Positions 1 through 62,764 of a DNA stretch of 64,000 bases are shown piece after piece (the first letter of the stretch is position 1; every line of letters starts with the position of its first letter). Source of the DNA: Amycolatopsis keratiniphila subsp. keratiniphila. Its GTDB lineage: Bacteria; Actinomycetota; Actinomycetes; Mycobacteriales; Pseudonocardiaceae. The notes under the pieces were generated by a model. The model had not been told where the DNA came from. It searched no databases and was given only the letters and a program-made list of their open reading frames with translations. The stretch covers positions 7,761-71,760 of the forward strand of contig NZ_LQMT02000023.1 in the NCBI RefSeq assembly GCF_001620365.2, written 5' to 3'. Position numbers and translations under genes: made by a program.

Positions 1-25
1 GCGTTTAGCCCGCGAAACGCAGGTC
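1..25. repeat. REP-like palindromic repeat, copy 1 (cut by window edge)
   Basis: Right-hand part of the dispersed repeat: GCGTTTAGC, CC, GCGAAACGC, then AGGTC. The right arm carries GAAA instead of TAAA, as in the copies at 49187 and 49225. The left flank lies outside the window. It sits beyond the terminator of the rplO operon. Confidence 0.85.
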
Positions 26-48
26 GGGGGCGCCGGAGGGAGCGCAAG

Positions 49-85
49 CGAAAGGCCCGCCTGGCGGAGCCTGGCGGGCCTTTCG
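49..85 (-). terminator. Hairpin terminator after rplO
   Basis: A perfect 13-bp inverted repeat (CGAAAGGCCCGCC, 49-61, with 73-85) encloses an 11-base loop 21 bases beyond the rplO stop. It probably ends the S10/spc transcript before secY, which would lie outside the window. Confidence 0.7.
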
Positions 86-105
86 GTGAAGCGAGCGAAG
101 AAAGC

Positions 106-552
106 TCAGAGCGTGGTGGCGGAGCCACCGGCGGCGGAGAGCTTCTCCTTGGCGGAGCCGGAGAAAGCGTCGGCGGTGATGTCCAGCTTGACGCCGTTCA
201 GGTCACCGTTGCCGAGCACCTTCACGAGCTTGTTCTTGCGAACAAGACCCTTCGCGACGAGCTCCTCGTTGCCGACCTTGCCACCCTCCGGGAACACGCG
301 GGCGATGTCGCCCAGGTTCACCGGCTGGTACTCGGTGCGGAAGCGGTTCTTGAAGCCGCGAAGCTTCGGGAGCCGCATGTGGATGGGCATCTGCCCACCC
401 TCGAAACCGGCGGGCACGTTCTTCCGGGCCTTGGTGCCCTTGGTACCGCGACCGGCGGTCTTGCCCTTCGAGCCCTCACCACGGCCGACGCGGATCTTGT
501 CGCGCTTCGCGCCCGGAGCCGGACGAAGGTGGTGGATCTTGATGGCAGTCAT
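106..552 (-). CDS. rplO: 50S ribosomal protein L15
   Basis: Late-assembly protein of the large subunit that binds 23S rRNA. The 148-residue length is normal. The N-terminus carries the L15 signature: a basic PAPGAKRDK stretch, then a glycine/lysine-rich segment ([19 protein letters not shown], about residues 22-40). The ATG at 552 overlaps the rpmD stop (ATGA), so the two are translationally coupled. It is the last gene of the ribosomal cluster in the window. secY normally follows in actinobacteria, but here a hairpin and a REP-like element come directly after. Confidence 0.97.
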
Positions 553-734
553 GCCTTGACCTCCTCGACCTCCACCAGGTGGCGGACGGTGTGGATAAGG
601 CCGCGCACCTCGGGAGTGTCATCACGCACGACGCTCTGGCGGATCTTGCGCAGCCCGAGGGTGCGCAGCGACTCGCGGTGAGCGTGCTTCGTGCCGATCT
701 TGCTCTTGACCTGGGTCACCTTGAGCTGAGTCAT
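549..734 (-). CDS. rpmD: 50S ribosomal protein L30
   Basis: A 61-residue protein with the compact L30 fold pattern ([11 protein letters not shown]..., [16 protein letters not shown]). The ATG at 734 was chosen because it gives the standard family length. The frame stays open further upstream, but that part is out-of-frame rpsE sequence. It lies between rpsE (2-base gap) and rplO (4-base overlap), the usual spc order. Confidence 0.95.
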
Positions 735-736
735 GG

Positions 737-1381
737 TCAGACCCCCTGCCCCGCGCGCTGACGCAGCATGCGAGCCGGAGCGACGTCCTCGAGCGGGAGA
801 CCGCGGCGGGCCGCGACCTCTTCGGGACGCTGCAGGCCCTTCAGGGCCGCCACGGTCGCGTGCACGATGTTGATCGCGTTGTCGGAGCCGAGCGACTTCG
901 ACAGCACGTCGTGGACACCCGCGCACTCCAGCACCGCGCGCACCGGGCCACCGGCGATGACACCGGTACCGGCCGAGGCCGGACGGAGCAGCACGACACC
1001 GGCGGCTTCCTCACCCTGGATCGGGTGGGGGATGGTGCCGGCGACGCGGGGAACGCGGAAGAAGTTCTTCTTCGCTTCCTCGACGCCCTTGGCGATGGCC
1101 GCGGGAACTTCCTTGGCCTTGCCGTAGCCGACGCCGACCTGACCGTCGCCGTCACCGACGACCACCAGGGCGGTGAAGCTGAAGCGACGACCACCCTTGA
1201 CGACCTTGGCGACGCGGTTGATCGTCACGACCTTCTCGAGGTGCGGGGTCTTCTCCTGGCCGGCCCCGCCACGGCCGCTGTCGCGCCGGTCCCGGCGGTC
1301 GCGACGGTCATTGCGGTCGTTGCCGCCCTGCCCGCCGGGTCCGCCCTGGCCGCCGCCGAATTGCCGTGTACGTCCCGGCAT
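737..1381 (-). CDS. rpsE: 30S ribosomal protein S5
   Basis: Small-subunit protein involved in decoding accuracy and mRNA unwinding. The 214-residue product starts [12 protein letters not shown] low-complexity N-terminal extension of about 45 residues, rich in Gly, Asp and Arg ([20 protein letters not shown]), precedes the conserved S5 domain ([19 protein letters not shown], then [13 protein letters not shown]). Such extensions are common in actinobacterial S5. The conserved domain begins normally, so a later start is not needed. Confidence 0.96.
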
Positions 1382-1412
1382 CAGGCTTTCCTTCCATTCA
1401 CGAGCATCTGCA

Positions 1413-1811
1413 TCAGAACTCCAACCCCGCCTCGCGGGCAGCGTCGGCGAGCGCCGCGATGCGGCCGTGGTAGGCGTTGCCACCACGGTCGAACACCACG
1501 GTCGAGACACCGGCGTTCTTGGCGCGGGCGGCGACGAGTTCCCCGACCTTGGCGGCCTTGGCCTTCTTGTCGCCTTCCAGCGCGCGGACGTCCGCCTCGA
1601 GGGTGGACGCCGACGCCAGGGTCTTGCCGGCGAGGTCGTCGATCAGCTGCACGGCGATGTGCCGCGACGAACGCTTGACGACCAGGCGCGGACGCTGGTC
1701 CGTGCCGTTGATCTTCTTGCGAAGGCGGAAGTGCCGACGGGCCTTCGCGACGCGGCGGCGGGTCGAGATGTCCTTGCCGACCGGCTTGCGCTTCGTAGTC
1801 GTGTCGCTCAT
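1413..1811 (-). CDS. rplR: 50S ribosomal protein L18
   Basis: Binds 5S rRNA together with L5. The N-terminal basic part ([17 protein letters not shown]) and the segment [17 protein letters not shown] are typical. The ATG at 1811 gives 132 residues. A GTG two codons upstream (1817) overlaps the rplF stop as GTGA and is a possible alternative start. Order rplF-rplR-rpsE is the standard spc arrangement. Confidence 0.95.
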
Positions 1812-1813
1812 GA

Positions 1814-2353
1814 TCACTTACCCGTCTTTCCGACCTTGCGGCGGATCTTCTCACCCTCGTAGCGCAGGCCCTTGCCCTTGTACGGGTCCGGGCGGCGCAG
1901 CTTGCGGATGACCGCGGCGATCTGGCCGACCTTCTGCTTGTCGATGCCCGAGACCGAGAACCGGGTGGGGCTCTCGACCTTGAAGGTGATGCCTTCCGGA
2001 GCCTCGATCTTCACCGGGTGGCTGTAGCCGAGGGCGAACTCGAGGTCCGAGCCCTTGGCCTGCACACGGTAACCGACACCGTGGATCTCGAGCTTCTTCT
2101 CGTAGCCCTCGGTCACACCGACGACGAGGTTGTTGACCAGCGTCCGGGTGAGACCGTGCAGGGCACGGCTGGTGCGCTCCTCGTCGGGCCGCTTGACCTC
2201 GAGCGTGCCGTTCTCGGCCTGCTCGACGGTGATGGGCTCGGCGATGGTGTGCTCGAGGGTGCCCTTGGGCCCCTCGACCTTGATCTGCTGACCGTCGATG
2301 GTCACCTTGACCCCGGAGGGGACGGCGACCGGCAGCTTTCCAATGCGTGACAT
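1814..2353 (-). CDS. rplF: 50S ribosomal protein L6
   Basis: A 179-residue protein with the two tandem L6 repeats, starting [15 protein letters not shown] and ending with the conserved [14 protein letters not shown] region. The ATG at 2353 has a purine-rich ribosome binding site (GAAGGGGGCAAAGAC). The open frame continues upstream into rpsH antisense-free sequence that does not resemble L6, so the internal ATG was preferred. Confidence 0.97.
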
Positions 2354-2369
2354 GTCTTTGCCCCCTTCC

Positions 2370-2768
2370 TTACCAGACGTAGGCGAGGACTTCGCCGCCC
2401 ACGCTGTTGCGCTTGGCCTGACGGTCGGTCTGGAGGCCGGACGACGTCGAGATGATCGCGACGCCGAGGCCACCGAGAACCGACGGCAGTTCGGTCGATT
2501 TTGCGTAGACCCGCAGGCCGGGCTTGGACACGCGGCGGAGGCCGGCGATGCTGCGCTCACGGTTGGGGCCGTACTTCAGCTCCACGACGAGGTTCTTGTG
2601 CTTCTCGCCCGGCTCGTCGCGGTAGCCCGAGATGTAACCCTCGCGCTTGAGGATCTCGGCGATGTTCGCCTTGATCTTCGAGTGGGGAAGCACGACCTCG
2701 TCGTGGTAAGCCGAGTTCGCGTTACGCAGACGGGTCAAGAAGTCTGCGATGGGGTCGGTCATCGTCAT
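2370..2768 (-). CDS. rpsH: 30S ribosomal protein S8
   Basis: 132 residues. Starts [18 protein letters not shown], the invariant S8 opening, and ends in the conserved C-terminal STSSG...[10 protein letters not shown]8 binds helix 21 of 16S rRNA and in many bacteria represses the spc operon. No S8 mRNA target could be recognised by eye here. Starting at the second ATG, two codons downstream, is possible. Confidence 0.97.
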
Positions 2769-2850
2769 GGTGACCTGTCAACCTTTCTCGCCCTGGTTCC
2801 CTGCGATTTCACTGCAGGGCCTGTGGCGAAGTGGGAGTTAAAAAAGACTC

Positions 2851-3036
2851 TTACCAGCTGGACTTGCGGACGCCGGGCAGCTCGCCCGCGTGTGCCATCT
2901 CGCGAAGGCAGATCCGGCAGAGCCCGAACTTGCGGAACACCGAGTGCGGGCGACCGCACCGCTGGCAGCGCGTGTAACCGCGAACCTTGAACTTCGGCGT
3001 CTTCGCGGCCTTGTGGACCAGTGCTTTCTTGGCCAT
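2851..3036 (-). CDS. rpsZ: 30S ribosomal protein S14, zinc-binding (type Z)
   Basis: A 61-residue short S14 with two CxxC pairs (CQRC at residues 24-27 and CRIC at 40-43), the zinc-binding form. It starts [12 protein letters not shown] at 3036 and sits between rplE and rpsH as in other Gram-positive spc operons. A zinc-free paralogue, if present, would lie elsewhere. The 82-base gap to rpsH holds no gene. Confidence 0.97.
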
Positions 3037-3040
3037 CGAC

Positions 3041-3604
3041 TCAGTTCTCCTTGAACGGGAAGCCGAGCTTGCGAAGCAGCGCGCGGCCCTCGTCGTCGGT
3101 GTTGGCGGTGGTGACGACAGTGACGTCCATACCGCGCGGGCGGTCGATGGCGTCCGGGTCGATCTCGTGGAACATGGACTGCTCGTTGAGACCGAACGTG
3201 TAGTTGCCGTTGCCGTCGAACTGCTTCGGCGAAAGCCCGCGGAAGTCACGGATACGCGGCAGCGCGATGGTCAGCAGCCGGTCGAGGAACTCCCACATGC
3301 GGTCGTTGCGCAGCGTGACGCGCGCACCGATCGGCTGGCCCTCACGCAGCTTGAACTGCGCGATGGACTTGCGAGCCTTGCGAACCTCGGGCTTCTGCCC
3401 GGTGATCGCGGCCAGGTCACGGATGGCGCCTTCGATCAGCTTGCTGTCACGGGCGGCGTCACCGACACCCATGTTCACGACGACCTTGACGACGCCCGGG
3501 ATCTGGTGGACGTTCTCGAAGGAGAACTCCTCCTGGAGCTGTCCCTTGATCTCCTCGCGGTACCGCACCTTGAGGCGCGGGGCGATCTTCTCTGCGGTGG
3601 TCAT
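3041..3604 (-). CDS. rplE: 50S ribosomal protein L5
   Basis: 187 residues. Contacts 5S rRNA and the P-site tRNA. Conserved blocks [24 protein letters not shown] and [12 protein letters not shown] are visible in order. ATG at 3604, 2 bases from rplX; rpsZ follows after a 4-base gap, so the three are tightly coupled. Confidence 0.97.
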
Positions 3605-3606
3605 GA

Positions 3607-3921
3607 TCAGATGTCCTTACCGTTCCGGCGCGAGACCCGGACCTTCTTGCCGTCCTCGCCGATGCGGTAGCCCACCCGGGTCGGCTTGCCGTCGGAGTCG
3701 ACGACCATCACGTTCGAGACGTGGATGGGCGCCTCCTGCGTGACGATGCCGCCGGACTGCGCGCCGCGCTGGGTCTGGGAGATCCGCGTGTGCTTCTTGA
3801 TCCGGTTGACGCCCTCGACCAGCACGCGCTCGCGCTCGGGGTAGGCCTGGATGACCTTGCCCTTGGCACCCTTGTCCTTGCCGGCGATGACGACGACCGT
3901 GTCGCCCTTCTTCACCTTCAT
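3607..3921 (-). CDS. rplX: 50S ribosomal protein L24
   Basis: 104 residues with an N-terminal KOW motif ([19 protein letters not shown], about residues 5-23). It is one of the two assembly initiators on 23S rRNA. Starts [12 protein letters not shown] directly after rplN with a 3-base gap. Confidence 0.97.
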
Positions 3922-3924
3922 GCT

Positions 3925-4293: not shown

Positions 4294-4370
4294 GTCTACT
4301 CCTGTATGTCGCGCTGGTTCTCGCGTTGAACCGCGAGCCTTGCGGAACTAAGGGACTCAGAGAGCCCTAC

Positions 4371-15145: not shown

Positions 15146-15718
15146 ATGTCCGCCGAGTTCGAGCAGCTGGTCGCGCAATTCGACCAGTTCCAGTCCCAGC
15201 TCCGGAACGTCGACGATCGGCTCGCGAGCATCGGCGGCATGCAGGACGAGCTCAGCAGGATCGAGGCGACGGCGTCCTCTTCGGACCGTTCGGTGACCGT
15301 GGTCGCGGGGCCCGGCGGCGCGATCATGGACGTCAAGTTCACCGAAGACGCCCTTCGCCTGCGGCCGGACGCGCTTTCCGCGGCGCTGATGTCGACCATC
15401 CAGCAGGCCGTGGCCGAATCGGCCCGCAAACAGGCGACGATCGTCGAAGAGCACATGGGCGACGACCTCAACCTGGTGGACCAGGTGCTGGAGACCCAGG
15501 CGGACCTGTTCGGCACCACCGTCGAGGAGATGCGGGCGCGGATGGACGAAGAGTCGCCGTCGCGGCCGGCCGCCGAGCAGCCGTCCGACGACTACTCCGA
15601 GCGTTCCTTGCTCAAGTCCGCCGACGAGCCGCAGCGGCCGCAGCCGTCGCCGCCCCCGGCGTCGAGCGGCTCGGACGGCGACCGTTTCCTGAAGAACCTC
15701 TTCGACGACGACCACTGA
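15146..15718 (+). CDS. YbaB/EbfC-like protein, possibly EspL-like
   Basis: 190 residues. The N-terminal half is predicted coiled coil (EFEQLVAQFDQFQSQLRNVDDRL). It is followed by the YbaB-type core with a short beta region (SVTVVAGPGGAIMDVKFTEDALRL) and another helix (LSAALMSTIQQAVAESARKQATIVEEHM). The C-terminal 60 residues are a disordered, acidic and proline-rich tail. YbaB proteins bind DNA, but in mycobacterial ESX-1 regions a YbaB-like protein (EspL) accompanies EspB/EspC substrates, and the two downstream genes fit that role better. ATG with GGGGAGG site. First of four plus-strand genes. Confidence 0.75.
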   Translation: MSAEFEQLVAQFDQFQSQLRNVDDRLASIGGMQDELSRIEATASSSDRSVTVVAGPGGAIMDVKFTEDALRLRPDALSAALMSTIQQAVAESARKQATIVEEHMGDDLNLVDQVLETQADLFGTTVEEMRARMDEESPSRPAAEQPSDDYSERSLLKSADEPQRPQPSPPPASSGSDGDRFLKNLFDDDH

Positions 15719-15728
15719 CCCCCGGGCA

Positions 15729-15758
15729 GGATCGCGTTTAGCGGGCTAAACGCGATCC
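15729..15758. repeat. REP-like palindromic repeat, copy 2 (perfect palindrome)
   Basis: Two perfect 14-base arms (GGATCGCGTTTAGC and its complement) around GG, starting 10 bases after the stop of the YbaB-like gene. Identical in sequence to the copy at 35095-35124. Confidence 0.95.
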
Positions 15759-15849
15759 GAGGCTCTTGGAACCGCAGGCGGGGCAGCCGGGTCCAAGGCG
15801 CCGATCACGACGAGCCGCATCGGAAGGTGCGCGAAGGGAGGGACCGCCG

Positions 15850-16209
15850 ATGGCCGGAGGGCATGAGGTGGTGATCAGCGCGCTGCGCACCTACTCGGGC
15901 AAGCTCGGGCAGGACGTCCGGATCCCGAACGAGGTCGGACGGCTGACGCAGCAGTCCGACGTCGGCGACGAGTCATGGGGAGTCGTCGGCCTGTTCGTGA
16001 AGCACGAGTACACGTCGATGCTCACCGATCTGCAGGATCTGCTGATCGAGATGTCCGCGGGGCTGACCGCGGCCTCGGAGAAGCTCGGCAACGCCGCCAC
16101 CGCCTACGAGCGGAACGAAGACGACAACGTCAAGGCGCTCAACGAAATCCTCAAGCTGCTGGAGCAGCCGGCGCAGTCGAGGACACCGAAGATGGGGCCG
16201 GCCAAGTAG
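15850..16209 (+). CDS. EspC-like type VII secretion substrate (DUF2580-type)
   Basis: 119 residues, helical hairpin pattern. Conserved hydrophobic heptads surround SWGVVG (W43) and the C-terminal helix contains AYERNEDDN, which fits the YxxxD/E secretion motif of type VII substrates (Y86, E90). The ATG at 15850 has a GGGAGG site; the open frame upstream would run through arginine-rich non-coding sequence. It lies 91 bases after the first REP element and 15 bases before the next gene. Family assignment rests on motif and context, so ordinary WXG100 cannot be excluded. Confidence 0.7.
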   Translation: MAGGHEVVISALRTYSGKLGQDVRIPNEVGRLTQQSDVGDESWGVVGLFVKHEYTSMLTDLQDLLIEMSAGLTAASEKLGNAATAYERNEDDNVKALNEILKLLEQPAQSRTPKMGPAK

Positions 16210-16224
16210 CGAGGGGGACTGATC

Positions 16225-17412
16225 GTGGCCGATCAGAAGATCACCGGCGAACACACCAAGATCCAGATCAACGACTACAACCCGGACACCATCCGCACGG
16301 ACAAGATGCTGACCTCGCTGCCGGGGCCGATCGGCAGTGGCTTCAGCACGTTCGACACCGTCAAGAAGGCGACCGCGGACGGGTTCCAGGCGAGCGACAT
16401 CGGGACCATCGCGGCCAGCGGCGCCGGCTTCGTCAGCTCGTGCATGGGCGTGGCGGACATCGCCAGCGACCCGATCGGCTGGCTGGTCGGCCAGGGTCTC
16501 AGCTTCCTGATGAACGTGTGCCAGCCGATCCAGGACGCCATCCACATGGTGAGCGGCGACGGCCCGGCGTTGTCGAACGCGGCGGGCAACTTCAACAACA
16601 TCGGTGTCTATCTGCAGGACTACAGCAAGAAGTTCGGCGAAGACGCGAAGACGTCGCTGTCGCAGTGGACCGGTGACGCGGCGAACGCGGCGGGCGAGAA
16701 GCTGGCGAAGTTCGCGCAGGGCATCGACGGGATCGCCGCGCAGGCCGGGGACATCGCCCAGCTGCTGCAGATCTCCAGCATGGTGATGACGGTGATCGAG
16801 GAGTTCATCAAGGCGATCCTCACCGAGTTCATCACCTGGCTGATCATGATCTGGATCCCGGCGCTGGCCGCGGCCGTCCCGACCTGTGGCGGTTCGACGG
16901 CGACGGCGGGCGGGCTGACGGCCACCCGCGCGGTCTCCACCACGTCGAAGGTTCAGAAGTTCCTGAACAAGCTCCGCCAGCTGCTCGACAAGATCAAGCA
17001 GTTCCTTGGCAAGCTCAAGGAGTTCTTCGGCAAGTGGAAGGGCAACTACAAGGAGCTGATGGCCCACAACAAGTCCACCGCGCAGCTGGCGGCCGGGCCG
17101 GGCGCGTCCGCGTGGGGCAAGTTCGCCTCGAAGGACGGCGCCATGGGCGGCAGACTCGCGGACGGTTTCGGTGAGCGGATGACGTCGGCCACGAAGAAGG
17201 CCGCGTTGAACACCGTCGGCCTCGGCAAGGCCACCAACCCGGACGGCAGCTGGAAGACGCCGGAGACGGGCCGCGAGAAGGGCGAGGTCGCGGCGGGTGT
17301 CGCCGGGAAGGCCGGCACGTACACGTCGGGAGGGATCAAGGCCGGCCAGTACGGTTCGGTGGGTGACGACGAACAGACGCCCGAGGAAGCCTCCGACAAT
17401 CTGGACTTCTGA
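16225..17412 (+). CDS. WxG-containing EspB/PPE-like putative type VII substrate
   Basis: 395 residues from GTG at 16225 (AGGGGG site). No signal peptide. The N-terminal about 180 residues are helical with a WxG motif (SQWTGDAA, W148-G150). A long hydrophobic helix (about 183-217, including EFITWLIMIWIPALAAAVP) follows, then a lysine-rich amphipathic coiled region (KFLNKLRQLLDKIKQFLGKLKEFFGKW, split over 245-271), and a Gly/Ser/Lys-rich C-terminus. Secretion through an ESX system encoded elsewhere is the best guess. Membrane insertion of the hydrophobic helix is another possibility. Confidence 0.6.
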   Translation: MADQKITGEHTKIQINDYNPDTIRTDKMLTSLPGPIGSGFSTFDTVKKATADGFQASDIGTIAASGAGFVSSCMGVADIASDPIGWLVGQGLSFLMNVCQPIQDAIHMVSGDGPALSNAAGNFNNIGVYLQDYSKKFGEDAKTSLSQWTGDAANAAGEKLAKFAQGIDGIAAQAGDIAQLLQISSMVMTVIEEFIKAILTEFITWLIMIWIPALAAAVPTCGGSTATAGGLTATRAVSTTSKVQKFLNKLRQLLDKIKQFLGKLKEFFGKWKGNYKELMAHNKSTAQLAAGPGASAWGKFASKDGAMGGRLADGFGERMTSATKKAALNTVGLGKATNPDGSWKTPETGREKGEVAAGVAGKAGTYTSGGIKAGQYGSVGDDEQTPEEASDNLDF

Positions 17413-17415
17413 GCC

Positions 17416-18030
17416 GTGACCGCGTGGATCATCGCCATCGCCGCGGTGGCGTTGCCGGTCGTGCTCGCCGCCTGGTGGATCCTCGCCGGGGCGGCGAAGA
17501 AACGCGGGCTGGCCACGTTGGCGCGGGAGCGGGGCTGGGACTTCTACAGCGGTGCCCGGCTCGGTGCCGCGGGCGGGAGGCACGAGCAGCCCGCGACCGG
17601 CCGGGCGCCCGCCCCGTTGCGGCGGGCCGGCGAGTCGATCGACCAGGCGGTGGTCGGCACGCACCGGGGGAAGCCGTTCGGTGTCTACCGGTATCACCGG
17701 CCGGGTGCCGGATTCCGTCAGGACGGCACCCGCGAGTCCGGTTCGCTGCGGACGGTCGTGCACGTCGAGACGGGCACGGCCATGCCGGACTGCACGCTCT
17801 CGATCAGCGGATCCGAAGTGGACTGCTCGAATCCCGCGTTCGTCCCGCGTCCCGAGGTCCGTGACTGGCTGACGGCGAACGCGGGCCGGTGCCGCGAGTT
17901 CCACACGTCCGGGCGGACGGTGGCGGTGGTGCCGAAGACGCTGCCGAGCGGGAAGCAACTGCTGCGCACCTTGGACTACCTGGCCGACGTCGCGGACCGG
18001 GCCCCGCTCACCGCCACGGATCGCGTTTAG
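17416..18030 (+). CDS. Membrane-anchored protein of unknown function
   Basis: 204 residues from GTG, three bases after the preceding stop. One N-terminal membrane helix (WIIAIAAVALPVVLAAWWILAG, split around residues 4-25) is followed by a soluble domain with RERGWDF, GVYRY and a late PSGKQLL segment. I recognise no named family. Position as the last gene of the Esp-like group suggests a role with those proteins. The last codons GAT CGC GTT TAG are the left arm of a REP-like element, so the stop codon is provided by the repeat. Confidence 0.65.
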   Translation: MTAWIIAIAAVALPVVLAAWWILAGAAKKRGLATLARERGWDFYSGARLGAAGGRHEQPATGRAPAPLRRAGESIDQAVVGTHRGKPFGVYRYHRPGAGFRQDGTRESGSLRTVVHVETGTAMPDCTLSISGSEVDCSNPAFVPRPEVRDWLTANAGRCREFHTSGRTVAVVPKTLPSGKQLLRTLDYLADVADRAPLTATDRV

Positions 18031-18047
18031 CCCGCTAAACGCAGGTC
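18018..18047. repeat. REP-like palindromic repeat, copy 3
   Basis: GGATCGCGTTTAGC, CC, GCTAAACGC, then AGGTC. The element overlaps the final four codons and the TAG stop of the upstream plus-strand gene. Confidence 0.95.
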
Positions 18048-18076
18048 AGGCCTCCCACCGCCGTCCGCGCCGCGCC

Positions 18077-18105
18077 GATCGCGTTTAGCGGGCTAAACGC
18101 GATCC
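18077..18105. repeat. REP-like palindromic repeat, copy 4 (palindrome)
   Basis: GATCGCGTTTAGC, GG, then the complementary arm ending GATCC. On the minus strand it supplies the last codons (Asp-Arg-Val) and TAG of the acetyltransferase gene, mirroring copy 3 only 29 bases away. Confidence 0.95.
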
Positions 18106-18630: not shown

Positions 18631-18660
18631 GGATCGCGATTAGGGGGCTAAACGCAGGTC
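18631..18660. repeat. REP-like repeat, copy 5 (GATTAGGGGG variant)
   Basis: GGATCGCGATTAGGGGG followed by CTAAACGCAGGTC. The last two bases plus the next A form the TGA stop (minus strand) of the MmpS-like gene. Confidence 0.93.
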
Positions 18661-23972: not shown

Positions 23973-24002
23973 GGATCGCGATTAGGGGGCTAAACGCAGG
24001 TC
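23973..24002. repeat. REP-like repeat, copy 6 (GATTAGGGGG variant)
   Basis: Same 30-base sequence as copies 5, 7 and 16. Its AGGTC end faces the 3' end of the serine hydrolase gene, 10 bases away. Confidence 0.95.
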
Positions 24003-25218: not shown

Positions 25219-25248
25219 GGATCGCGATTAGGGGGCTAAACGCAGGTC
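25219..25248. repeat. REP-like repeat, copy 7 (GATTAGGGGG variant)
   Basis: GGATCGCGATTAGGGGG then CTAAACGCAGGTC, between the serine hydrolase start and the rpoC terminators. Confidence 0.95.
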
Positions 25249-25454: not shown

Positions 25455-29366
<3,912 letters not shown>

Positions 29367-29457: not shown

Positions 29458-32958
<3,501 letters not shown>

Positions 32959-33386: not shown

Positions 33387-33416
33387 GACCTGCGTTTAGC
33401 GGGCTAAACGCGATCC
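33387..33416. repeat. REP-like palindromic repeat, copy 8 (inverted orientation)
   Basis: Reverse complement of the copy at 18018: GACCT, GCGTTTAGC, GG, GCTAAACGC, GATCC. Upstream of rpoB. Confidence 0.95.
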
Positions 33417-33545
33417 GGCCGCCGGGGCTTCCCGAACGGTCACCGGGTCGGGCCCGGCGACCGGCGGGACGCCCCGGACCGACTTGTCCGATGTGACCGT
33501 TGTAGCAGATGGGCCGCCTGGTGCGGCGCACAGGCATGGCGACGC

Positions 33546-33574
33546 ACCTGCGTTTAGCGGGCTAAACGCGACGC
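33546..33574. repeat. REP-like palindromic repeat, copy 9
   Basis: ACCT, GCGTTTAGC, GG, GCTAAACGC, GACGC. It ends 31 bases before the GTG start of the next plus-strand gene, so its position is 5' rather than 3'. The GACGC flank also occurs at copy 19. Confidence 0.92.
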
Positions 33575-33604: not shown

Positions 33605-34795
33605 GTGCGCGAAACGTGGGAGAAGGACGTCAGTACCGAGATGCGCCCGGTCCTCTTGCGGCCGGAGGCCGAGCTGCGGCAGGCCGCGGAGCGGAGCCCC
33701 CTCCTCGGCGAGGTCCGAGGCTACGTCGCCGGGTCGGACGCCGGCGATCCACTGATCCCTCGGTGGGCGGAGGTGTCCGGGCTGGTCCACGCCGTCGACG
33801 GCAAGCACGTCCCCGTCGAGGAGAACGCGACGCTCGTCGATGACGCTCTCCGGCTCTGGGAGCGGCTGTATTCGACGATCGGCGAGGCCGAGCCTCTGCC
33901 CCTCGGACTGGTCACGACGATCACACTCACGCTCTACCGGTCGGGTCCGGTCGCTGTGCCGGTCGAGCTCCTTTACGAAGCCATCGAGCTCGCGCAGGCG
34001 CCGGACGAATCGACGCGGTACGCGACCAGCGTCGCGCTGGATCTGCTGGAACGGCTCGGCGCGATCGAGAAGGGCACCGCGGACCCGGCCGGGCTCGCGC
34101 TGATCGCCGAGATCGCCGGAAAACCCGATCCCTCCCCGTACGTCCTCAGCCTCACCCCGATCGCCGTCTGGGCGATCAACAGGGCGCTCCGCGAGGCCGG
34201 AATGGACGCACCGGTCATCGGTGAGGCGGCGGAGAAGAGTCTCGGCGAGCTGAGCCCACGCCTCGCCGAGTCCGGGCCGGGGATCATCGACGCGGAACTG
34301 AAGGCCTGGGTGCGGCACCGGCCGCCTTCCGACGCGGCAGCGGAGGCGAGTGAGTTCCTCCGTACCGCACGGCTTCCCGAAGAACGACTGTTCGCCTTGA
34401 TCGCGCTCGGGGAAACCGGCGAGATCGGCCTCGAGACCGCGACGGGAGTCCGAGCCGAAGGCGGTCTGGCCGGCGCGGCCGCCGCGATGTGGTTGTCCGA
34501 ACGTGGCGCGGTCGACCGGGAAACGATCACTCGCGACGAGGTCGTCCTCGGGATGGCCGACCATTACGCGGCGATGCACGCGCTCGGCGCGTTCGTCCAT
34601 CAGCTCGCCGACATGGACGACGGCTTCGACGTCGTGGAACTGCTGACGTCCTCCGGCCATCCGGACCGGCTCGAACTCCTGAACGTCGTCGGCGCGAGCC
34701 ATCCGGACCGGAAGATGGCCAAGAAGGCGCGTACGGCGAGCTTCAAGCTCCGGTCGGGCGGCGCCCGAAGCCCTGGTCAGCGCGGCGACGCGTGA
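33605..34795 (+). CDS. Protein of unknown function, all-helical
   Basis: 396 residues from GTG at 33605; an ATG at residue 13 (33641) is an alternative start. Codon bias is fully typical of the region. No signal peptide or membrane segment. The sequence is Ala/Glu/Leu-rich with repeated helical stretches (VDDALRLWERLYSTIGEAEPL, LLYEAIELAQAPDESTRYATSVALDLLERLGAIE), suggesting a helical-repeat scaffold, and ends in a basic tail (RKMAKKARTASFKLRSGGAR). Divergent from rpoB. I recognise no domain and assign no function. Confidence 0.7.
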   Translation: MRETWEKDVSTEMRPVLLRPEAELRQAAERSPLLGEVRGYVAGSDAGDPLIPRWAEVSGLVHAVDGKHVPVEENATLVDDALRLWERLYSTIGEAEPLPLGLVTTITLTLYRSGPVAVPVELLYEAIELAQAPDESTRYATSVALDLLERLGAIEKGTADPAGLALIAEIAGKPDPSPYVLSLTPIAVWAINRALREAGMDAPVIGEAAEKSLGELSPRLAESGPGIIDAELKAWVRHRPPSDAAAEASEFLRTARLPEERLFALIALGETGEIGLETATGVRAEGGLAGAAAAMWLSERGAVDRETITRDEVVLGMADHYAAMHALGAFVHQLADMDDGFDVVELLTSSGHPDRLELLNVVGASHPDRKMAKKARTASFKLRSGGARSPGQRGDA

Positions 34796-34819
34796 CGATT
34801 AGCCCGCTAAACGCAGGTC
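34793..34819. repeat. REP-like repeat, copy 10 (overlaps a stop codon)
   Basis: TGACGATTAGC, CC, GCTAAACGC, AGGTC. The first three bases are the TGA stop of the preceding gene. Confidence 0.88.
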
Positions 34820-35094: not shown

Positions 35095-35124
35095 GGATCG
35101 CGTTTAGCGGGCTAAACGCGATCC
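35095..35124. repeat. REP-like palindromic repeat, copy 11 (perfect palindrome)
   Basis: Identical to copy 2: 14-base arms around GG. Ends eight bases before the stop codon of the last mce-operon gene. Confidence 0.95.
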
Positions 35125-46716: not shown

Positions 46717-46746
46717 GGATCGCGTTTAGCCCGCTAAACGCAGGTC
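46717..46746. repeat. REP-like palindromic repeat, copy 12
   Basis: Same sequence as the copy at 18018. First of three within 155 bases. Confidence 0.95.
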
Positions 46747-46774: not shown

Positions 46775-46804
46775 GGATCGCGTTTCGCGGGCTAAACGCG
46801 ATCC
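46775..46804. repeat. REP-like palindromic repeat, copy 13 (one changed base)
   Basis: Palindrome form with TTTCGC instead of TTTAGC in the left arm; right arm intact. Confidence 0.93.
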
Positions 46805-46842
46805 GGCGCCCTGGACGCGCCCGAATGCTTAGCCTTGCTACG

Positions 46843-46871
46843 CGTCGCGATTAGGGGGCTAAACGCAGGTC
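46843..46871. repeat. REP-like repeat, copy 14 (GATTAGGGGG variant)
   Basis: CGTCGCGATTAGGGGG then CTAAACGCAGGTC; the left flank is CGTC rather than GGATC. Confidence 0.93.
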
Positions 46872-48216: not shown

Positions 48217-48245
48217 AGATCGCGTTTAGCGGGCTAAACGCGACC
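48217..48245. repeat. REP-like palindromic repeat, copy 15
   Basis: AGATCGCGTTTAGC, GG, GCTAAACGCGACC. It lies between the divergent rplJ leader and the plus-strand gene at 48286. Confidence 0.93.
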
Positions 48246-48285
48246 GGCGGAGTGCGCCGGGGGTCTCGCGGGGCATCATGGTGAC

Positions 48286-49150: not shown

Positions 49151-49180
49151 GGATCGCGATTAGGGGGCTAAACGCAGGTC
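49151..49180. repeat. REP-like repeat, copy 16 (GATTAGGGGG variant)
   Basis: First of three direct, near-tandem copies within 104 bases between two convergent genes. Confidence 0.95.
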
Positions 49181-49186: not shown

Positions 49187-49216
49187 GGATCGCGTTTAGC
49201 CCGCGAAACGCAGGTC
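49187..49216. repeat. REP-like repeat, copy 17 (GAAA variant)
   Basis: GGATCGCGTTTAGC, CC, GCGAAACGCAGGTC. Six bases after copy 16. Confidence 0.93.
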
Positions 49217-49224: not shown

Positions 49225-49254
49225 AGGTCGCGATTAGCCCGCGAAACGCAGGTC
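49225..49254. repeat. REP-like repeat, copy 18 (mixed variant)
   Basis: AGGTCGCGATTAGC, CC, GCGAAACGCAGGTC: left arm like the GATTAG class, right arm like copy 17. Ends six bases before the hydrolase stop codon. Confidence 0.92.
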
Positions 49255-57974: not shown

Positions 57975-58009
57975 GGGGGTGGAACAGGGGGGTCCGTTAC
58001 CGCGAAACC

Positions 58010-60625
58010 TCAGGTCAGCAGGGTCAGGACGGTCTCGGAGTGGCGTCCGGGCGAACGCGCCGTCCGGGCCTGGAGCCACGCCTCGAGGCGATCCTCGGGC
58101 AGCGGCCGCGAGATGAGGTAGCCCTGCGCGACGTCACAGCCCATCGCTTCGAGCTGATCCCGCGCGACGTCCTCCTCGACGCCCTCCGCCACGACCGTGA
58201 GGCCGAGCGAGTGGCCCAGCTCGACGATGGAGCGCACGACGGCGAGGTCGCCGAGGTCGGTGCCCATGCCGAGGACGAAGCTCTTGTCGATCTTGACCTG
58301 GTCGACCGGGAGCTGCCGCAGGTACGCCAGCGACGAGTAGCCGGTGCCGAAGTCATCGACGGCGAGCACGATGCCCAGCGAGTGCAGCTCCCGCAGGATC
58401 GGCAGCGCCTTCTGCGGGTCGGACATCACACCGGACTCGGTCAGCTCGAAGGTGAGCAGCTCGGGCGGGATGCCGAAGCGGTCGAGTTCGCGGGCGACCT
58501 TCGTCGGGAAGTCCTCGTCGGCCAGGTTCCGCACGGACAGGTTCACCGCGGCGGAGATGCGCAGGCCCTCGTCGAGCCATTTGCGCACGCGCTTCAACGA
58601 CTCTTCGAGCACGAAGGACGTCAGGACGCCGATGAGGCCGGCTGCCTCGATCGCCGGGACGAATTCGTCCGGGCCGAGCCTGCCGAACTCCGGGTGCACC
58701 CAGCGGACGAGCGCCTCGACACCTTGGATCTGCCGGTTCGGCAAGGTGATCTTCGGCTGGTAGTGGACGCTCAGCTGGCCTTCCTCGAGCGACTGCCGGA
58801 ACTGCGTGACCATCTGGAACCGGCGCATGAAGATCTGGCCCATGCTGGCCATGTAGCCGCGGACCTCTTCGCCGCCCTTGGTCGCGCGGACGGCGACGTC
58901 GGCGCGCTGCAGCAGCCCGTCGACGTCGACCTGGTCGTCGTCCTCCGCCGAAGAGGTCGCGTAACCGATCATCGCGTTGGCTTCGACGGAGAGCCGGTCC
59001 ACCGGGTACGGGGCGACGAGTTCCGCGCGAAGCAGCTCCGCGGCGGCCTGGGCGCGTTCCGGCGCGCAGCCGACGAGAAGCGCCGCGAAGGACGCGCCTT
59101 CGAGCCTGGCGAGCGGGACGTCGGGACCGAGCGCGTCGCGGATCCGGCGGCCCGCGGCGATGACCATCCGGTCCGCCCAGACGTAGCCGAGGGCGTCGCT
59201 GACGGTGGAGAAGACGTCCAGATCGACACGGAGGACGACCGCGTCGACCTGTTCCCGCAACGGTTCCTTGGCGACCTGGCGGAAGCCCGGCCGGTTGAGC
59301 AGGCCGGTCAGCGGGTCGTGGTACGCGTCGTGGCGCAGGGTCGCGAGCAGACGCCGGTTGTCCAGCGACGTCGCGAGGTGGCTGGCCATCGTGCCGAGCA
59401 GCTGGACGTCGTATTTACCGAACCCACGCCAGCGGCTCAGCCTGTCGTGCGCTTCGACGACGCCGAGGAGCTGGTTCGCGCTGCGCAGCGGGACGACCAG
59501 CGCCTCCTGGGCGCCGCGGTCGAGCAACGCGGAACGGACGTCGGGATTGGCTTCGGTGATCCGGAAGTGGCGGACGTGCGCGCCGGGCAGGCGCAGCAGC
59601 GGGTCGTCGGCGGCCGGATCGACGGGCGGCAGTTCGTCACCCGCGACGACCATCCGCATGGTGTCCTTCGGCTCCAGCCGAAGCCTCAGCACGACGCGGC
59701 CGGCGGCGAGCTGATCCTTGATGCGTTCGGCGATGGTCGCCCATTCGCGGACGTCCACGCCGCCGACGAGTTCGTCCGCGCGCCCGGCCGGCCGTGCGGC
59801 GGCCTGCTGACCGGACCGCGCGACCATCAGGCTGACGTCGGACAACGCTTCCATGTCGCGCTGCTCGCGCAGCAGGTCGGAGTACGCCCAGTACAGCGCG
59901 GTGAGGCCGAGGAAGACGGCGAGCACGAGCGGCCAGGCCTTCGGCGTCCCGGAAATGACCAAATATCCGGAAAGGCCGACCGAAGCGTTGACGAAGCCGA
60001 CGACGAGGATGCGGCCGGTCAGCCGGATCGCGGTGCTGACCCGCATGCGACGGCGCAGCACGCGGACGGCGGCGAGCGCGAGCAGCGTGCTGACCAGCGG
60101 CGCGGTCAAGGTCCCGGCCAGCGCGGCGATCCAGGTCATGTCGTGGGCGCCGGAGGCCTGTTTCACCAGTCCCGCCACGGCGAACGCGCCGGTGATCTCC
60201 AGCAGGAACGCGCCGGCGTTGTAGAGCACGCGGCCGGCGACCTTGCGGGCCAGGAGTGTTCCGATCCCCGCCGCGAGATGCGCGGCGAGCACAACTTCGA
60301 AGGGGGCGACGAAGAATCCGATGACCAGCGGGATCTCGGTGAACGAGATCGTCCAGGAGATGCCGCTGCGGACGTCGACGTTGATGCCGAGCTGTTCGGC
60401 GAGCAGGAACGCGAGGGCGAGGATCGGCCCGATCCACAGCAGATCGTCCGAGGCCTCGAAGTCCAGCCAGAGGCTGACCGCGGCCGCGGCGGCGATGCCC
60501 ATGGTGAGTACCGCGAAGGTGTAGACGCGGAACCGTCGCTCGTCGGTACGAGCCTCCGTAACGGCGCCTCCCTTGCCCGCAGCCGCCTGTGCGGCGCTCC
60601 CGGGCCTGCCGTTCGTGTCCGGCAT
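58010..60625 (-). CDS. Membrane-bound c-di-GMP phosphodiesterase (GAF-degenerate GGDEF-EAL)
   Basis: 871 residues. Six or more membrane helices in residues 33-255 form a sensor region of MASE type, followed by a GAF-like domain (about 265-430). The GGDEF domain (435-595) is degenerate: the motif reads LEGASF (508-513), so diguanylate cyclase activity is unlikely. The EAL domain keeps EALVRW, NLSVRNL, ELTESGVMSD, DDFGTGYSSLAYLRQLPVDQVKIDKSFV-type residues and AEGVE/QGYLI, predicting an active phosphodiesterase. It should lower c-di-GMP in response to a membrane or GAF signal. ATG with AAGGAAGG site. Confidence 0.9.
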   Translation of the reverse strand: MPDTNGRPGSAAQAAAGKGGAVTEARTDERRFRVYTFAVLTMGIAAAAAVSLWLDFEASDDLLWIGPILALAFLLAEQLGINVDVRSGISWTISFTEIPLVIGFFVAPFEVVLAAHLAAGIGTLLARKVAGRVLYNAGAFLLEITGAFAVAGLVKQASGAHDMTWIAALAGTLTAPLVSTLLALAAVRVLRRRMRVSTAIRLTGRILVVGFVNASVGLSGYLVISGTPKAWPLVLAVFLGLTALYWAYSDLLREQRDMEALSDVSLMVARSGQQAAARPAGRADELVGGVDVREWATIAERIKDQLAAGRVVLRLRLEPKDTMRMVVAGDELPPVDPAADDPLLRLPGAHVRHFRITEANPDVRSALLDRGAQEALVVPLRSANQLLGVVEAHDRLSRWRGFGKYDVQLLGTMASHLATSLDNRRLLATLRHDAYHDPLTGLLNRPGFRQVAKEPLREQVDAVVLRVDLDVFSTVSDALGYVWADRMVIAAGRRIRDALGPDVPLARLEGASFAALLVGCAPERAQAAAELLRAELVAPYPVDRLSVEANAMIGYATSSAEDDDQVDVDGLLQRADVAVRATKGGEEVRGYMASMGQIFMRRFQMVTQFRQSLEEGQLSVHYQPKITLPNRQIQGVEALVRWVHPEFGRLGPDEFVPAIEAAGLIGVLTSFVLEESLKRVRKWLDEGLRISAAVNLSVRNLADEDFPTKVARELDRFGIPPELLTFELTESGVMSDPQKALPILRELHSLGIVLAVDDFGTGYSSLAYLRQLPVDQVKIDKSFVLGMGTDLGDLAVVRSIVELGHSLGLTVVAEGVEEDVARDQLEAMGCDVAQGYLISRPLPEDRLEAWLQARTARSPGRHSETVLTLLT

Positions 60626-60905
60626 CCGACCTTCCTTCCCGGCTGCCCAACCGGTCTTGTCCTACCGCGACCTCGGGGACGAGGGCAATACAGTACCCCG
60701 GAGGGCGTACCCAAGTCCCATTCGAGACAGTATGAGATCACCCCAGGGTTAACAATGGGCGCGTCGCGCTGACCTGCGTGGACCAAGGGGTGAAATGGGA
60801 GCGTTATTCGCGTTCCTTCCGACTACCGGAAGTCACCTGGCGCCACGCTCCGGCCGATCTCGTGAAGTTCCCATCGGACCCGCGAGTAGGCGTTTGAATA
60901 GCCCT

Positions 60906-61844
60906 ATGAATAGCCACGCCATCGCCGCCGGGCATGCCGAGCGGCTCGCCACCGTGGACGCCCTGCTCCCCGAAATGCCTGCACTGGAGCCTGTCGAGGG
61001 CTCTGTGTCACTCTCCGCGACGGCAGGCGACTCGGCCGCCGCCGGATTGTCGGTACGGACCGAGGCGGGTCCCGATTCCGTTGACTCTCCGTGGCGAGCC
61101 CTCGTCGAACATCGCCTCGAAGCCCGCCTCACCGGTCCCCGTCCGGAAGCGGCCCTCGACGCATTACTCACCCGATGGGATGAACATCTGAAGACCGTGG
61201 CCCCACCTGGGGATGTCGAGACGGCGGCGACCGTGGTGCGGCCCAGCCGGGACTCCCCCGGTTCGGCCGAATTGCTGCGCCGCGGCTTCGCCCCGGTGCT
61301 GGTGATCGCGGTCCGCCCGGCCGACCGGCTCGCCGTGACCGGGCCGCCCGCCACTCCCGGCGTGCACATCCGGCCCGCCGAAGCGGATGATCTCGAAACC
61401 GCCGTCGGACTCGAACTGGAATTGCAGCGTTATGACGCGCAGTTCGGTTCTGTCACTTTGCGCGAGGGTGCGGAGGAAACGATCACGGCGGACCTGTCGA
61501 AACAGTTGGGCCGGGAAAATCCGACTTTGTGGATCGCCGAGCTGTACGGCCGTCCGCTGGGCATGGTGCGGGTGCAGTTCCCCGGCGACACGGCGTGGAT
61601 CCGCGGCCGGGTCGCGGCCGAGAAGGTCGGCTACCTGTCGTCGTTGGCGGTGGCGGAACAGGCGCGGTCGAGCGGCGTGGGGACGGCGCTCGCCGCGCAC
61701 GCGCACCAGGTCTTCGACGAATGCGGCGCCGATGCCGTGCTGCTGCACCACGCGCTGGCCAACCCTCGCTCGACGCCGTTCTGGTACGCGCAGGGCTACC
61801 GGCCGCTCTGGACGTACTGGCAGCGGCGACCGGCGGTGCCATGA
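60906..61844 (+). CDS. GNAT family N-acetyltransferase, two-domain
   Basis: 312 residues if started at the ATG at 60906. An alternative ATG at 60795 has the better ribosome binding site (AAGGGG) and would add 37 residues of low-similarity sequence. The C-terminal half is a clear GNAT domain: VGYLSSLAVAEQARSSGVGTALAAHAHQVF with the acetyl-CoA loop, and STPFWYAQGYRPLWTYW. The N-terminal half may be a degenerate GNAT copy. Substrate unknown. Confidence 0.8.
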   Translation: MNSHAIAAGHAERLATVDALLPEMPALEPVEGSVSLSATAGDSAAAGLSVRTEAGPDSVDSPWRALVEHRLEARLTGPRPEAALDALLTRWDEHLKTVAPPGDVETAATVVRPSRDSPGSAELLRRGFAPVLVIAVRPADRLAVTGPPATPGVHIRPAEADDLETAVGLELELQRYDAQFGSVTLREGAEETITADLSKQLGRENPTLWIAELYGRPLGMVRVQFPGDTAWIRGRVAAEKVGYLSSLAVAEQARSSGVGTALAAHAHQVFDECGADAVLLHHALANPRSTPFWYAQGYRPLWTYWQRRPAVP

Positions 61845-61863
61845 TCCGGATAGGCTCGTTTCC

Positions 61864-62712
61864 GTGACGAGGGACGATGACACGGCCCCGGTGGCGCCGA
61901 CCGGGGTCGACACCGAAAAGCCGTCCGCGGCGAGGATCTACGACTGGTTCCTCGGGGGAACCCACAACTGGGCGGTCGACCGCGAGTTCGCCCGCGCGCT
62001 GGAAAAGCAGTGGCGCTGGGTCAAACCGGGCGCGCGGCACAACCGCGAGTTCATGAACCGCGTCGTGCGCGCGGCGCTGGACGCCGGGATCCGGCAGTTC
62101 ATCGATCTGGGCTCCGGTGTCCCGACAGCCGGGAACGTGCACGAGATCGTGCAGGAGGAACTGGAGCCTGGTGATACGGCGAAGGTCGTGTACGTCGACT
62201 ACGAGCCGGTGGCGGTGGCGCACGCGGAGCTGATCCTCGAACGCCACGAGGCGACCGACTGGGCCGGGATCGTCCAAGCGGACATGCGGCGACCGAAGGA
62301 CATCCTGCGGCATCCGGAGACGCTGCGGCTGATCGATTTCGATCGGCCGGTGTGCCTGATGATGATGGCCGTCCTGCATTTCGCCGGCCCGCACGACGAT
62401 CCGCCCGCGCTGGTCGCGACGTACCGGAACGCGCTCGCGCCGGGCAGCTGGCTGGGGCTGTCGCATATGAGCTTCGGCGGCCAGACCGGCGTGGACGCCG
62501 ACGGGCTGCACTGGATGGTCGAGCAGTACCGGAAGACGAGCAATCCGGTGTGGATGCGGGACCGCGAAGAGATCGAGCCGCTCTTCGGGGACTGGCCGTT
62601 GCTGGAGCCCGGCGTCGTCCACCTGCCCGACTGGCGGCCCGTGCGGGAGCTGCGGCGGGACGAGGAAGGTGCCCGGCCGTTCGCCTGGTGCGGGGTCGCC
62701 GTCCACCCCTGA
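61864..62712 (+). CDS. SAM-dependent methyltransferase, DUF574-type
   Basis: 282 residues from GTG at 61864, 19 bases after the acetyltransferase. The family opening is distinctive: PSAARIYDWFLGGTHNWAVDREFA. The SAM-binding region FIDLGSGVPTAGNVHEI and the acidic VVYVDYEPVAVAHAELIL follow, with LMMMAVLHF later. Actinomycete genomes often contain many copies; substrate unknown. The frame is open further upstream but only as an overlap with the GNAT gene. Confidence 0.92.
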   Translation: MTRDDDTAPVAPTGVDTEKPSAARIYDWFLGGTHNWAVDREFARALEKQWRWVKPGARHNREFMNRVVRAALDAGIRQFIDLGSGVPTAGNVHEIVQEELEPGDTAKVVYVDYEPVAVAHAELILERHEATDWAGIVQADMRRPKDILRHPETLRLIDFDRPVCLMMMAVLHFAGPHDDPPALVATYRNALAPGSWLGLSHMSFGGQTGVDADGLHWMVEQYRKTSNPVWMRDREEIEPLFGDWPLLEPGVVHLPDWRPVRELRRDEEGARPFAWCGVAVHP

Positions 62713-62732
62713 CATCCGACCTTTCGGCGGTT

Positions 62733-62764
62733 CGCGTCGCGTTTAGCGGGCTAAAGGCGACGCG
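62733..62764. repeat. REP-like palindromic repeat, copy 19 (GACGCG flanks)
   Basis: 15-base arms CGCGTCGCGTTTAGC and GCTAAAGGCGACGCG around GG, one mismatch. Lies between two convergent genes. Confidence 0.9.

Follow-up and report, generated by a model that had tools for sequence, protein, structure and literature searches.

A palindromic element concentrated in one zone of the Amycolatopsis chromosome and its probable role as a protein-binding site

What might a palindrome of about 30 bp (flanks included) be doing when it recurs again and again in the gaps between genes, and why should it recur in one part of a chromosome? The question is raised by a 64-kb stretch of DNA from Amycolatopsis keratiniphila subsp. 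keratiniphila (contig NZ_LQMT02000023.1, positions 7,761 to 71,760), the whole of which is referred to here as the window. The nearest matches of one protein encoded there are 97-98% identical and belong to Amycolatopsis, which very probably places the window beside A. orientalis, A. coloradensis, and A. sp. WAC 01376. The core of the element, GCGTTTAGCNNGCTAAACGC, was matched 19 times in the 64 kb at up to three mismatches, against a shuffle mean of 0.01 and a maximum of 1 in 100 shuffles; eight of these copies are exact, four carry one mismatch, and seven carry two, with none at three to five mismatches. An earlier, sequence-only reading of this DNA had listed 19 copies, all of which were recovered where it had placed them, and its description of the flanks (GGATC, GACCT, and GACGC) and of a GATTAGGGGG subclass holds in the window. 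Its “nearly invariant” core was slightly overstated, 11 of the 19 copies differing from the core to some degree. In the window, the only Rfam hits above the curated score were three tRNAs, and the palindrome matches no known RNA family.

The main finding, which lay outside the view of that earlier reading, is that the element is concentrated in one zone of the chromosome. The source genome (9.09 Mb in 72 contigs) contains 37 exact cores confined to eight contigs, eight of the 37 being in the window. At up to three mismatches, at least 100 core matches per strand were obtained against three for a reversed control; the core is thus commoner than expected, and its copies are under-represented inside predicted genes rather than equally frequent there, both of which uphold the earlier claim of a genuine intergenic family. 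Within the source genome, nine copies at up to four mismatches were found at 91,761-111,760 of contig C16, and none at 71,761-91,760 or 111,761-151,760 of the same contig or at 120,001-160,000 of contig C18. Among the relatives, denoted here by handles such as G018, the concentration is seen as well: all 26 exact cores of G018 (a single contig) lie within 432 kb, and 66 of the 75 copies at up to one mismatch in G095 and 51 of the 57 in G019 lie within one 400-kb stretch. The non-palindromic subclass GATTAGGGGGCTAAACGC, present in six of the 10 genomes searched, is confined to one stretch of 118-385 kb per genome (85 of 85 copies). Counts per 20 kb rise and fall across approximately 300 kb, peaking at 15 in G095, and the density profile is similar in four species once mapped to that genome. 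The same subclass tends towards one strand in some genomes (14 versus 4 in G018, 9 versus 3 in G019, and 7 versus 6 in G095).

The position of the zone was then expressed as distance from dnaA, which was found in 19 genomes and could be compared with the zone on one contig in 11, the terminus itself not being located. The near edge of the zone lies 0.55-0.9 Mb from dnaA in nine of these 11 genomes (Table 1). Copies are also present on the opposite arm in G019, where four exact ones lie at -0.685 (two), -0.810, and -0.818 Mb, and the clearest instance is offered by G093, a 10.36-Mb contig with 79 inner cores TTTAGCGGGCTAAA (either strand) in two clusters, one per arm. Seventy-two of the 79 fall 0.70-1.20 Mb from dnaA, limits that were chosen after the data had been seen, and divide 39 to 33 between the arms; when every copy of a side is counted, the median distances are 0.82 and 0.95 Mb. 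Of 21 genes in 20 kb sampled from the main G093 cluster, 19 have a match in the G095 zone, as opposed to only two of 43 genes in 40 kb (two 20-kb samples) of the second cluster. The sampled second cluster is therefore no copy of the first, and a symmetric inversion is rendered less likely as the origin of the pair by the few gene matches in those samples. The mirror clusters are suggestive, being one case and not proof of a two-arm arrangement. The densest part of the main zone includes ribosomal protein genes (L15 maps there, the other names being drawn from size and order), and L15 and L1 were identified in the window; ribosomal protein genes as the cause of the zone were considered and dropped, given that the sampled second cluster of G093 carries other genes. 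Outside the main zone, a slot between a DUF445 gene and an AlgX-like gene holds copies in five genomes (seven in G066), the gene names having been called in one genome and the others matched by gene sizes and order.

Neighbouring copies are not spaced at random, their centre-to-centre distances being mostly 36-37, 46, 56, 67, or 77-78 bp. From a pooled set of 389 copies at up to four mismatches in 14 sequence sets, with 167 neighbours less than 200 bp apart, the 147 spacings of 30-110 bp were found to form a comb with a period of about 10.2 bp (R 0.72). Because the pooled sets share ancestry, jittered spacings were also compared with the genomes one by one, and the observed value was reached in none of 5000 trials for G095 (n = 41, R 0.70), G019 (n = 34, R 0.75), G018 (n = 33, R 0.68), and G030 (n = 32, R 0.72), and in 69 of 5000 for G093 (n = 11, R 0.60). 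Equal-length spacers in G095 exceed the similarity expected from composition only slightly at 56 and 57 bp (0.43 and 0.48 versus 0.36 and 0.41), and those at 37 bp display no excess likeness (0.47 versus 0.47). Tandem duplicates were nonetheless encountered, namely the spacers of a 48-bp pair in G095 and three near-identical copies in G018 from 8668879. A comb at the pitch of the helix points to proteins that would have to face one another.

The slots occupied by the element are largely held in common by the relatives. Of the 52 gaps that hold copies in G095, 46 do so in G019 as well, 43 do in G018, and 41 in G030, and 36 are filled in all four; by our own arithmetic, a random draw among the 166 gaps measuring 60 bp or more would give G095 and G019 about 16 slots in common. 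The mapping was made by interpolation, and the copies that could be placed in a gap were 102 of 112 (G095), 90 of 97 (G019), 80 of 94 (G018), and 79 of 85 (G030). Copy number is less firmly kept, being equal in 25 of 46 (G019), 28 of 43 (G018), and 22 of 41 (G030) shared slots and different in 35-46%. The slot of copy 5 in the window (core at 18636) is filled by recognised copies, up to four of them, in 10 of 12 relatives compared, and by more degenerate remnants alone in A. coloradensis and A. regifaucium. The sequence of the element, on the other hand, has changed between lineages: the type GACTTTCGC-NN-GCTAATCGC is the nearest for 67 of 85 copies in G030 versus three of 112 in G095, 16 of 97 in G019, and five of 94 in G018, and TTTAGC-NN-GCTAAA is kept with other outer halves in A. 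suaedae, G064, G012, and at one site each in G101 and G235. The exact inner core, a count that misses diverged forms such as that of G030, was found in 46 of the 390 family genomes and eight of 46 genera, and in 31 of 80 Amycolatopsis genomes, two of the 31 having a single copy (source genome included throughout). In G003, no inner core at up to one mismatch was detected in the matching 400 kb and none exact genome-wide, two look-alikes of the core with four mismatches being present. A replacement motif for G003, CACTTTCACGTGAA, was overlapped from the top repeated words of its matching region and rejected; TTTCACGTGAAA has 136 copies genome-wide, and so is no substitute mark of the zone, its sites lying at 0.45 to 3.12 Mb among the matches listed. 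TTTCACGTGAAA is often paired at 33-41 bp in that genome, and CACTTTCACGTGAA has a parS-like centre.

With respect to genes, which were predicted by our own script from codon statistics and without curated annotation, the midpoint lies outside the predicted genes for 91 of 105 copies in G095, 73 of 82 in G019, and 72 of 85 in G018 (up to three mismatches), even though intergenic DNA makes up just 14-15% of the region in these three genomes; 36 of the 272 copies have their midpoint in a predicted coding sequence, 17 of them more than 60 bp deep. Convergent gaps hold 36 of 96, 32 of 75, and 33 of 76 copies, respectively (101 of the 247 classed), in 16-21% of the intergenic bases, and divergent gaps hold 36 of the 247. 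In same-strand gaps, 88 of 110 copies are closer to the 3' end of the upstream gene and 22 are closer to a 5' end. Occupancy also follows the zone, since convergent gaps are filled in the dense part (8/9 in G095 and 10/12 in G019) and empty at the thin edge, with 0/7 in G095 (8.44-8.52 Mb, where six copies sit in non-convergent gaps) and 0/7 in G019 (8.64-8.72 Mb). The sequence-only reading had placed all copies outside coding cores and operons. The former part stands in the window, where all 19 cores are intergenic or overlap a gene end by no more than 8 bp by our own gene finder; the latter is unproven, because the copy at 18636 sits inside a 71-bp gap separating two genes of the same strand.

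The two halves of the element were compared for signs of a conserved stem. The symmetric positions of 15 averaged 9.8 versus 10.9 in shuffled halves for G095, 10.1 versus 10.9 for G019, and 9.7 versus 10.8 for G018, and no base-pair compensation between the halves was found in these three genomes. Nearly half of the asymmetry is attributable to the GG/CC centre, which is unable to be symmetric, and the outer flanks contribute as well. As the halves are less symmetric than shuffled ones, no hairpin appears to be kept. The outer flanks are of three types, A (GATCC), B (AGGTC), and C (GACGC or GACAC), mostly A or B, with C a minority whose reverse complement can hold CGTC; B is paired with A in 117 of 298 copies and with another B in none of the 298. 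Terminator-like calls (a GC-rich stem followed by a T run) numbered 12 in 40 kb, none at any of the 18 copies there, in a scan of low power here that gave fewer calls than shuffles did.

The palindrome, the spacing comb, the conservation of slots, the concentration in one zone, and the zone-wide change of half-sites between lineages are all legible in the DNA itself. Taken together, they lead us to favour, at a probability of roughly 0.55, the explanation that the copies are the sites of a cooperative dimeric DNA-binding protein that marks or organises a zone flanking the origin. In the mechanism proposed, a dimeric and sequence-specific protein would bind the palindrome, and neighbouring sites in helix register would be bound cooperatively; the sites would be kept in gaps, mostly at the 3' ends of genes, where a bound complex should disturb transcription least. 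Once bound, the protein may bridge or anchor the zone and so act on all of it, which might contribute to chromosome folding, segregation, or septum placement. A DNA-binding dimer fits because of the helical spacing, the symmetric core without stem compensation, the conserved slots, and the joint change of sequence, and the crowding of about a hundred sites into one zone beside the origin (on each arm in one species) would make zone-wide action the most likely. For the same reason, namely the concentration beside the origin (on both arms in G093), an effect on the zone is to be expected rather than on single genes. The sequence-only reading had put forward three possible roles, of which binding sites for a nucleoid protein is the best supported, by way of the 10.2-bp comb.

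Another of those roles was that of repetitive extragenic palindromic (REP) elements, in which case the copies would be palindromes, mobile now or in the past, that short-range transposition, slippage, or gene conversion had amplified locally and that do nothing for the host. Short intergenic palindromes, a preference for 3' ends and convergent gaps, and clustering are all REP traits in the passages cited from PMC3733652; some arrays are tandem duplicates (the 48-bp pair of G095 and the run of G018 from 8668879), copy number varies between close species, haplotypes (the GATTAGGGGG subclass among them) give the impression of having been copied whole, B-B pairs are missing altogether, and a scattered family exists in G235. 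The shape and the intergenic 3'-end placement are thus as the earlier reading had it, but the zone concentration, conserved slots, absent stem compensation, and helical spacing do not agree with it. In particular, the sharing of slots between species far exceeds random placement, the comb has no evident cause in a copying mechanism, places stay as sequences change zone-wide, and the opposite-arm cluster of G093 with its other genes is unlike local hopping; we regard a REP-like origin as unlikely. More doubtful still are terminators, or roadblocks that halt read-through in a region of highly expressed genes, despite the nearness of most same-strand copies to an upstream 3' end (88/110), the over-representation of convergent gaps, and the ribosomal protein genes in the densest part of the main zone. 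The elements have no T-tail, none of the 12 terminator calls fell at a copy in the 40 kb holding 18 of the 19 (in the scan that ran below its shuffles), no hairpin is kept, and convergent gaps at the thin edge are empty when those of the dense part are nearly all filled. The earlier suggestion of transcription-end or supercoiling elements keeps its 3'-end placement and is opposed by that low-powered terminator scan and the lack of base-pair compensation; a protein-bound roadblock may still act locally. It seems highly improbable that the copies are operators through which an ordinary transcription regulator controls a large regulon. A TetR gene does lie in the zone of four carriers, and a 20-bp palindrome with 9-bp halves has the size of many TetR-type operators, but the promoter side is avoided (22 of 110 copies nearer a 5' end and 36 of 247 in divergent gaps).

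A number of observations weigh against the binding-site explanation and should be given fair consideration. The distance from dnaA is not constant, with G070 and G018 deviating (1.16-1.44 and 1.57-2.0 Mb, respectively), and the dense zone is on just one arm in most genomes seen; the probability that a randomly placed block matches the mirror position as closely as in G093 is 0.04, in what is a single such genome. A group of four exact copies in G095 spans 340 bp at 3.2 Mb, and a further five of that genome's 75 copies lie outside the 400-kb stretch at positions not listed. In G235, which belongs to another genus and has 117 inner cores, the 29 among the matches listed lie dispersed on two contigs, of which one measures 1.1 Mb, so concentration in a zone is not a rule across the whole family, and the G235 family may be a separate case. 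Spacings of 60-160 bp alone (n = 34) give R 0.25 at 10.5 bp and 0.50 at 10.0 bp with a best fit near 11.4 bp, and owing to this poor fit the comb is certain for near neighbours alone. The two 46-bp and two 47-bp spacers of G095 are alike (0.75 and 0.71), from which it follows that some arrays are duplications. Placement at 3' ends is equally typical of REP elements, and polar (A-B) copies have no preferred direction towards a single nearby gene end (32 versus 26). Forty-nine of the 80 genomes of the genus are without the exact inner core (diverged forms would be missed), so that the system, if it is one, is dispensable. Finally, neither the self-regulation nor the presence/absence approach identified a binding protein. 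As for G018, its piece at 9,046,025-9,049,775 matches 44.7-48.4 kb of the window and lies near the contig end, away from its neighbours at 8.878 Mb; this end piece is probably an assembly fault.

Under the first of the two approaches to a binder, regulators beside copies outside the zone were checked; an ArsR-like gene is near one such copy, nothing singled it out, and the candidate was set aside. Some of the copies outside the zone are near PspC and MoeA genes. Under the second, 48 genes of the G095 zone are kept in G019, G018, and G030 and are without a comparable match in the 400-kb stretch of G003; among them are genes for a TetR, a MarR, and a LysR regulator (the last labelled by sight), a DUF559-like gene, and a gene for a reverse transcriptase. 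Lists of this kind arise from clade history alone, and with G003 compared over 400 kb this approach could not decide on a candidate. One TetR protein of the zone scored 27.9 bits with the RefZ model, far below its 180-bit cut-off. The RVT_1 reverse-transcriptase gene of the zone (G095 8,243,268-8,244,338), for which RT_other and RT_outgroup are the best PADLOC models, is 89-93% identical in three other carriers and has no match in the G003 stretch. The DUF559/restriction-endonuclease-like gene (G095 ~8,364,200-8,365,198) lies in the densest 20-kb bin and is similar (48-88%) in G019, G018, G030, G064, and G093, with none in the G003 stretch.

A bolder form of the binding-site explanation can be offered tentatively, as a conjecture that may well fail. 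The element would then represent a previously undescribed zone system of the Pseudonocardiaceae, comprising a dedicated dimer and phased arrays on a shoulder that lies some 0.6-1.2 Mb from the origin and was originally marked on both arms; bound to the arrays, the dimer would fold this shoulder or anchor it while chromosomes segregate or hyphae form septa. The protein and its sites would have co-changed several times, and much of the genus would have lost the system.

The individual copies of the window and the zones of the relatives are summarised in Table 1. The window also includes, at 15146-18030, a small block of genes with YbaB-like and WXG100-like domains that appears to be variable: it is close to that of G095, and its proteins are 37-51% identical or missing in G019 and G018, compared with 80-98% for most of the surroundings.

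Table 1. Copies of the element in the window (window coordinates) and location of the zone relative to dnaA in related genomes
Feature	Position	Remarks
Copy 1	1..25	core 1-20, 1 mismatch; right flank AGGTC; left flank outside window
Copy 2	15729..15758	exact core, GGATC..GATCC
Copy 3	18018..18047	exact core, GGATC..AGGTC; between convergent genes; 58 bp to copy 4
Copy 4	18076..18105	exact core, CGATC..GATCC
Copy 5	18631..18660	GATTAGGGGG subclass, GGATC..AGGTC
Copy 6	23973..24002	GATTAGGGGG subclass, GGATC..AGGTC
Copy 7	25219..25248	GATTAGGGGG subclass; ~210 bp past 3' end of gene 25455-29366 (presumably rpoC, from size and order)
Copy 8	33387..33416	exact core, GACCT..GATCC; upstream of gene 29458-32814 (which we take to be rpoB, from size and order)
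Copy 9	33545..33574	exact core; 158 bp from copy 8
Copy 10	34790..34819	2 mismatches; between convergent genes
Copy 11	35095..35124	exact core, GGATC..GATCC; shares convergent gap with copy 10
Copy 12	46717..46746	exact core; opens three-copy array (spacings 58, 67)
Copy 13	46775..46804	1 mismatch; array of copies 12-14
Copy 14	46842..46871	GATTAGGGGG subclass; array of copies 12-14
Copy 15	48217..48246	exact core; between divergent genes
Copy 16	49151..49180	GATTAGGGGG subclass; opens three-copy array (spacings 36, 38), convergent genes
Copy 17	49187..49216	1 mismatch; array of copies 16-18
Copy 18	49225..49254	2 mismatches; array of copies 16-18
Copy 19	62734..62763	1 mismatch, GCGTC..GACGC; between convergent genes
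Zone, G019	+0.55 to +0.93 Mb from dnaA	
Zone, G095	0.63 to 0.98 Mb from dnaA	
Zone, G030	~0.64 to 0.90 Mb from dnaA	
Zone, G086	0.66 to 0.78 Mb from dnaA	subclass only
Zone, G013	0.67 to 0.95 Mb from dnaA	subclass
Zone, G078	0.76 to 0.85 Mb from dnaA	among ten matches listed
Zone, G064	0.75 to 0.77 Mb from dnaA	four inner cores
Zone, G012	0.87 to 0.88 Mb from dnaA	three inner cores
Zone, G070	1.16 to 1.44 Mb from dnaA	exception
Zone, G018	1.57 to 2.0 Mb from dnaA	exception; doubtful assembly

The core strings were not found in any paper of the literature searched, most subscription papers being outside its coverage. Searches on repeats of Amycolatopsis or Pseudonocardiaceae, oriC/parS, actinobacterial macrodomains, and helical phasing brought up no description of the family in titles and abstract starts among the matches listed, and the main text of the A. 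orientalis genome paper (PMC4048454) lacks both “palindrom” and “repeat” in a word search. For GCTAAACGC, the titles among the matches listed deal with unrelated subjects. To our knowledge, few bacterial chromosome zones are defined by a repeated DNA motif of their own. Here, such a zone can be read from sequence alone, with natural variants in the sequence and place of the sites and with relatives in which the motif is not seen, so that zone-specific chromosome organisation becomes directly testable in antibiotic-producing actinomycetes. Should the element instead be a locally spreading repeat, it would be an unusual one, restricted to a single chromosomal region with its copies kept in helical register.

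Among known systems, parS/ParB is resembled in that palindromic sites are gathered on the origin side, and differs in sequence, the parS consensus being of the TGTTTCACGTGAAACA type. The parS-like TTTCACGTGAAA (inner 12-mer) is present just twice per genome, about 5 kb from dnaA, in the eight carriers searched, and the TGTTTCACGTGAAACA 16-mer was found at up to one mismatch in one of seven genomes. REP elements and bacterial interspersed mosaic elements (BIMEs) are described in the passages cited as intergenic palindromes of 20-40 bp, often clustered, with a preference for 3' ends and convergent gaps (PMC3733652, PMC2817692), and REP families as mostly spread through the genome, with one noted exception, and carrying a GTAG or CGTC tag (PMC3733652). 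The Amycolatopsis element is likewise a palindrome in that size range with many, mostly intergenic copies; unlike REP families as so described, it is concentrated in a zone, mostly without a GTAG or CGTC tag, helically spaced, and free of paired stem changes. The matS site of the Escherichia coli Ter macrodomain is given as a 13-bp motif with 23 copies in 800 kb around the terminus (PMC3330122, PMC5441646, in the parts cited). As in MatP/matS, a short motif is repeated within one domain of a few hundred kb; unlike matS as described there, the present motif is about 30 bp long, far denser, arranged in phased arrays, and on the origin side (judged by distance from dnaA, the terminus not being located). 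In Bacillus subtilis, the TetR-family protein RefZ reads five RefZ-binding motifs (RBMs) in all, near-palindromic sites that lie on both arms and hold conserved positions with respect to oriC across the genus (PMC6657595, in the passages cited). The present element is near-palindromic too, lies on both arms clearly in G093 and weakly in G019, and has its near edge 0.55-0.9 Mb from dnaA in nine of 11 genomes, G018 and G070 being the exceptions, whereas its hundred or so copies and phased arrays contrast with five sites and no phased arrays in those passages, and its reader protein was not found. Without membership in either being claimed, RefZ/RBM and MatP/matS may be taken as the nearest working analogues of a zone marked out by its own repeated site.

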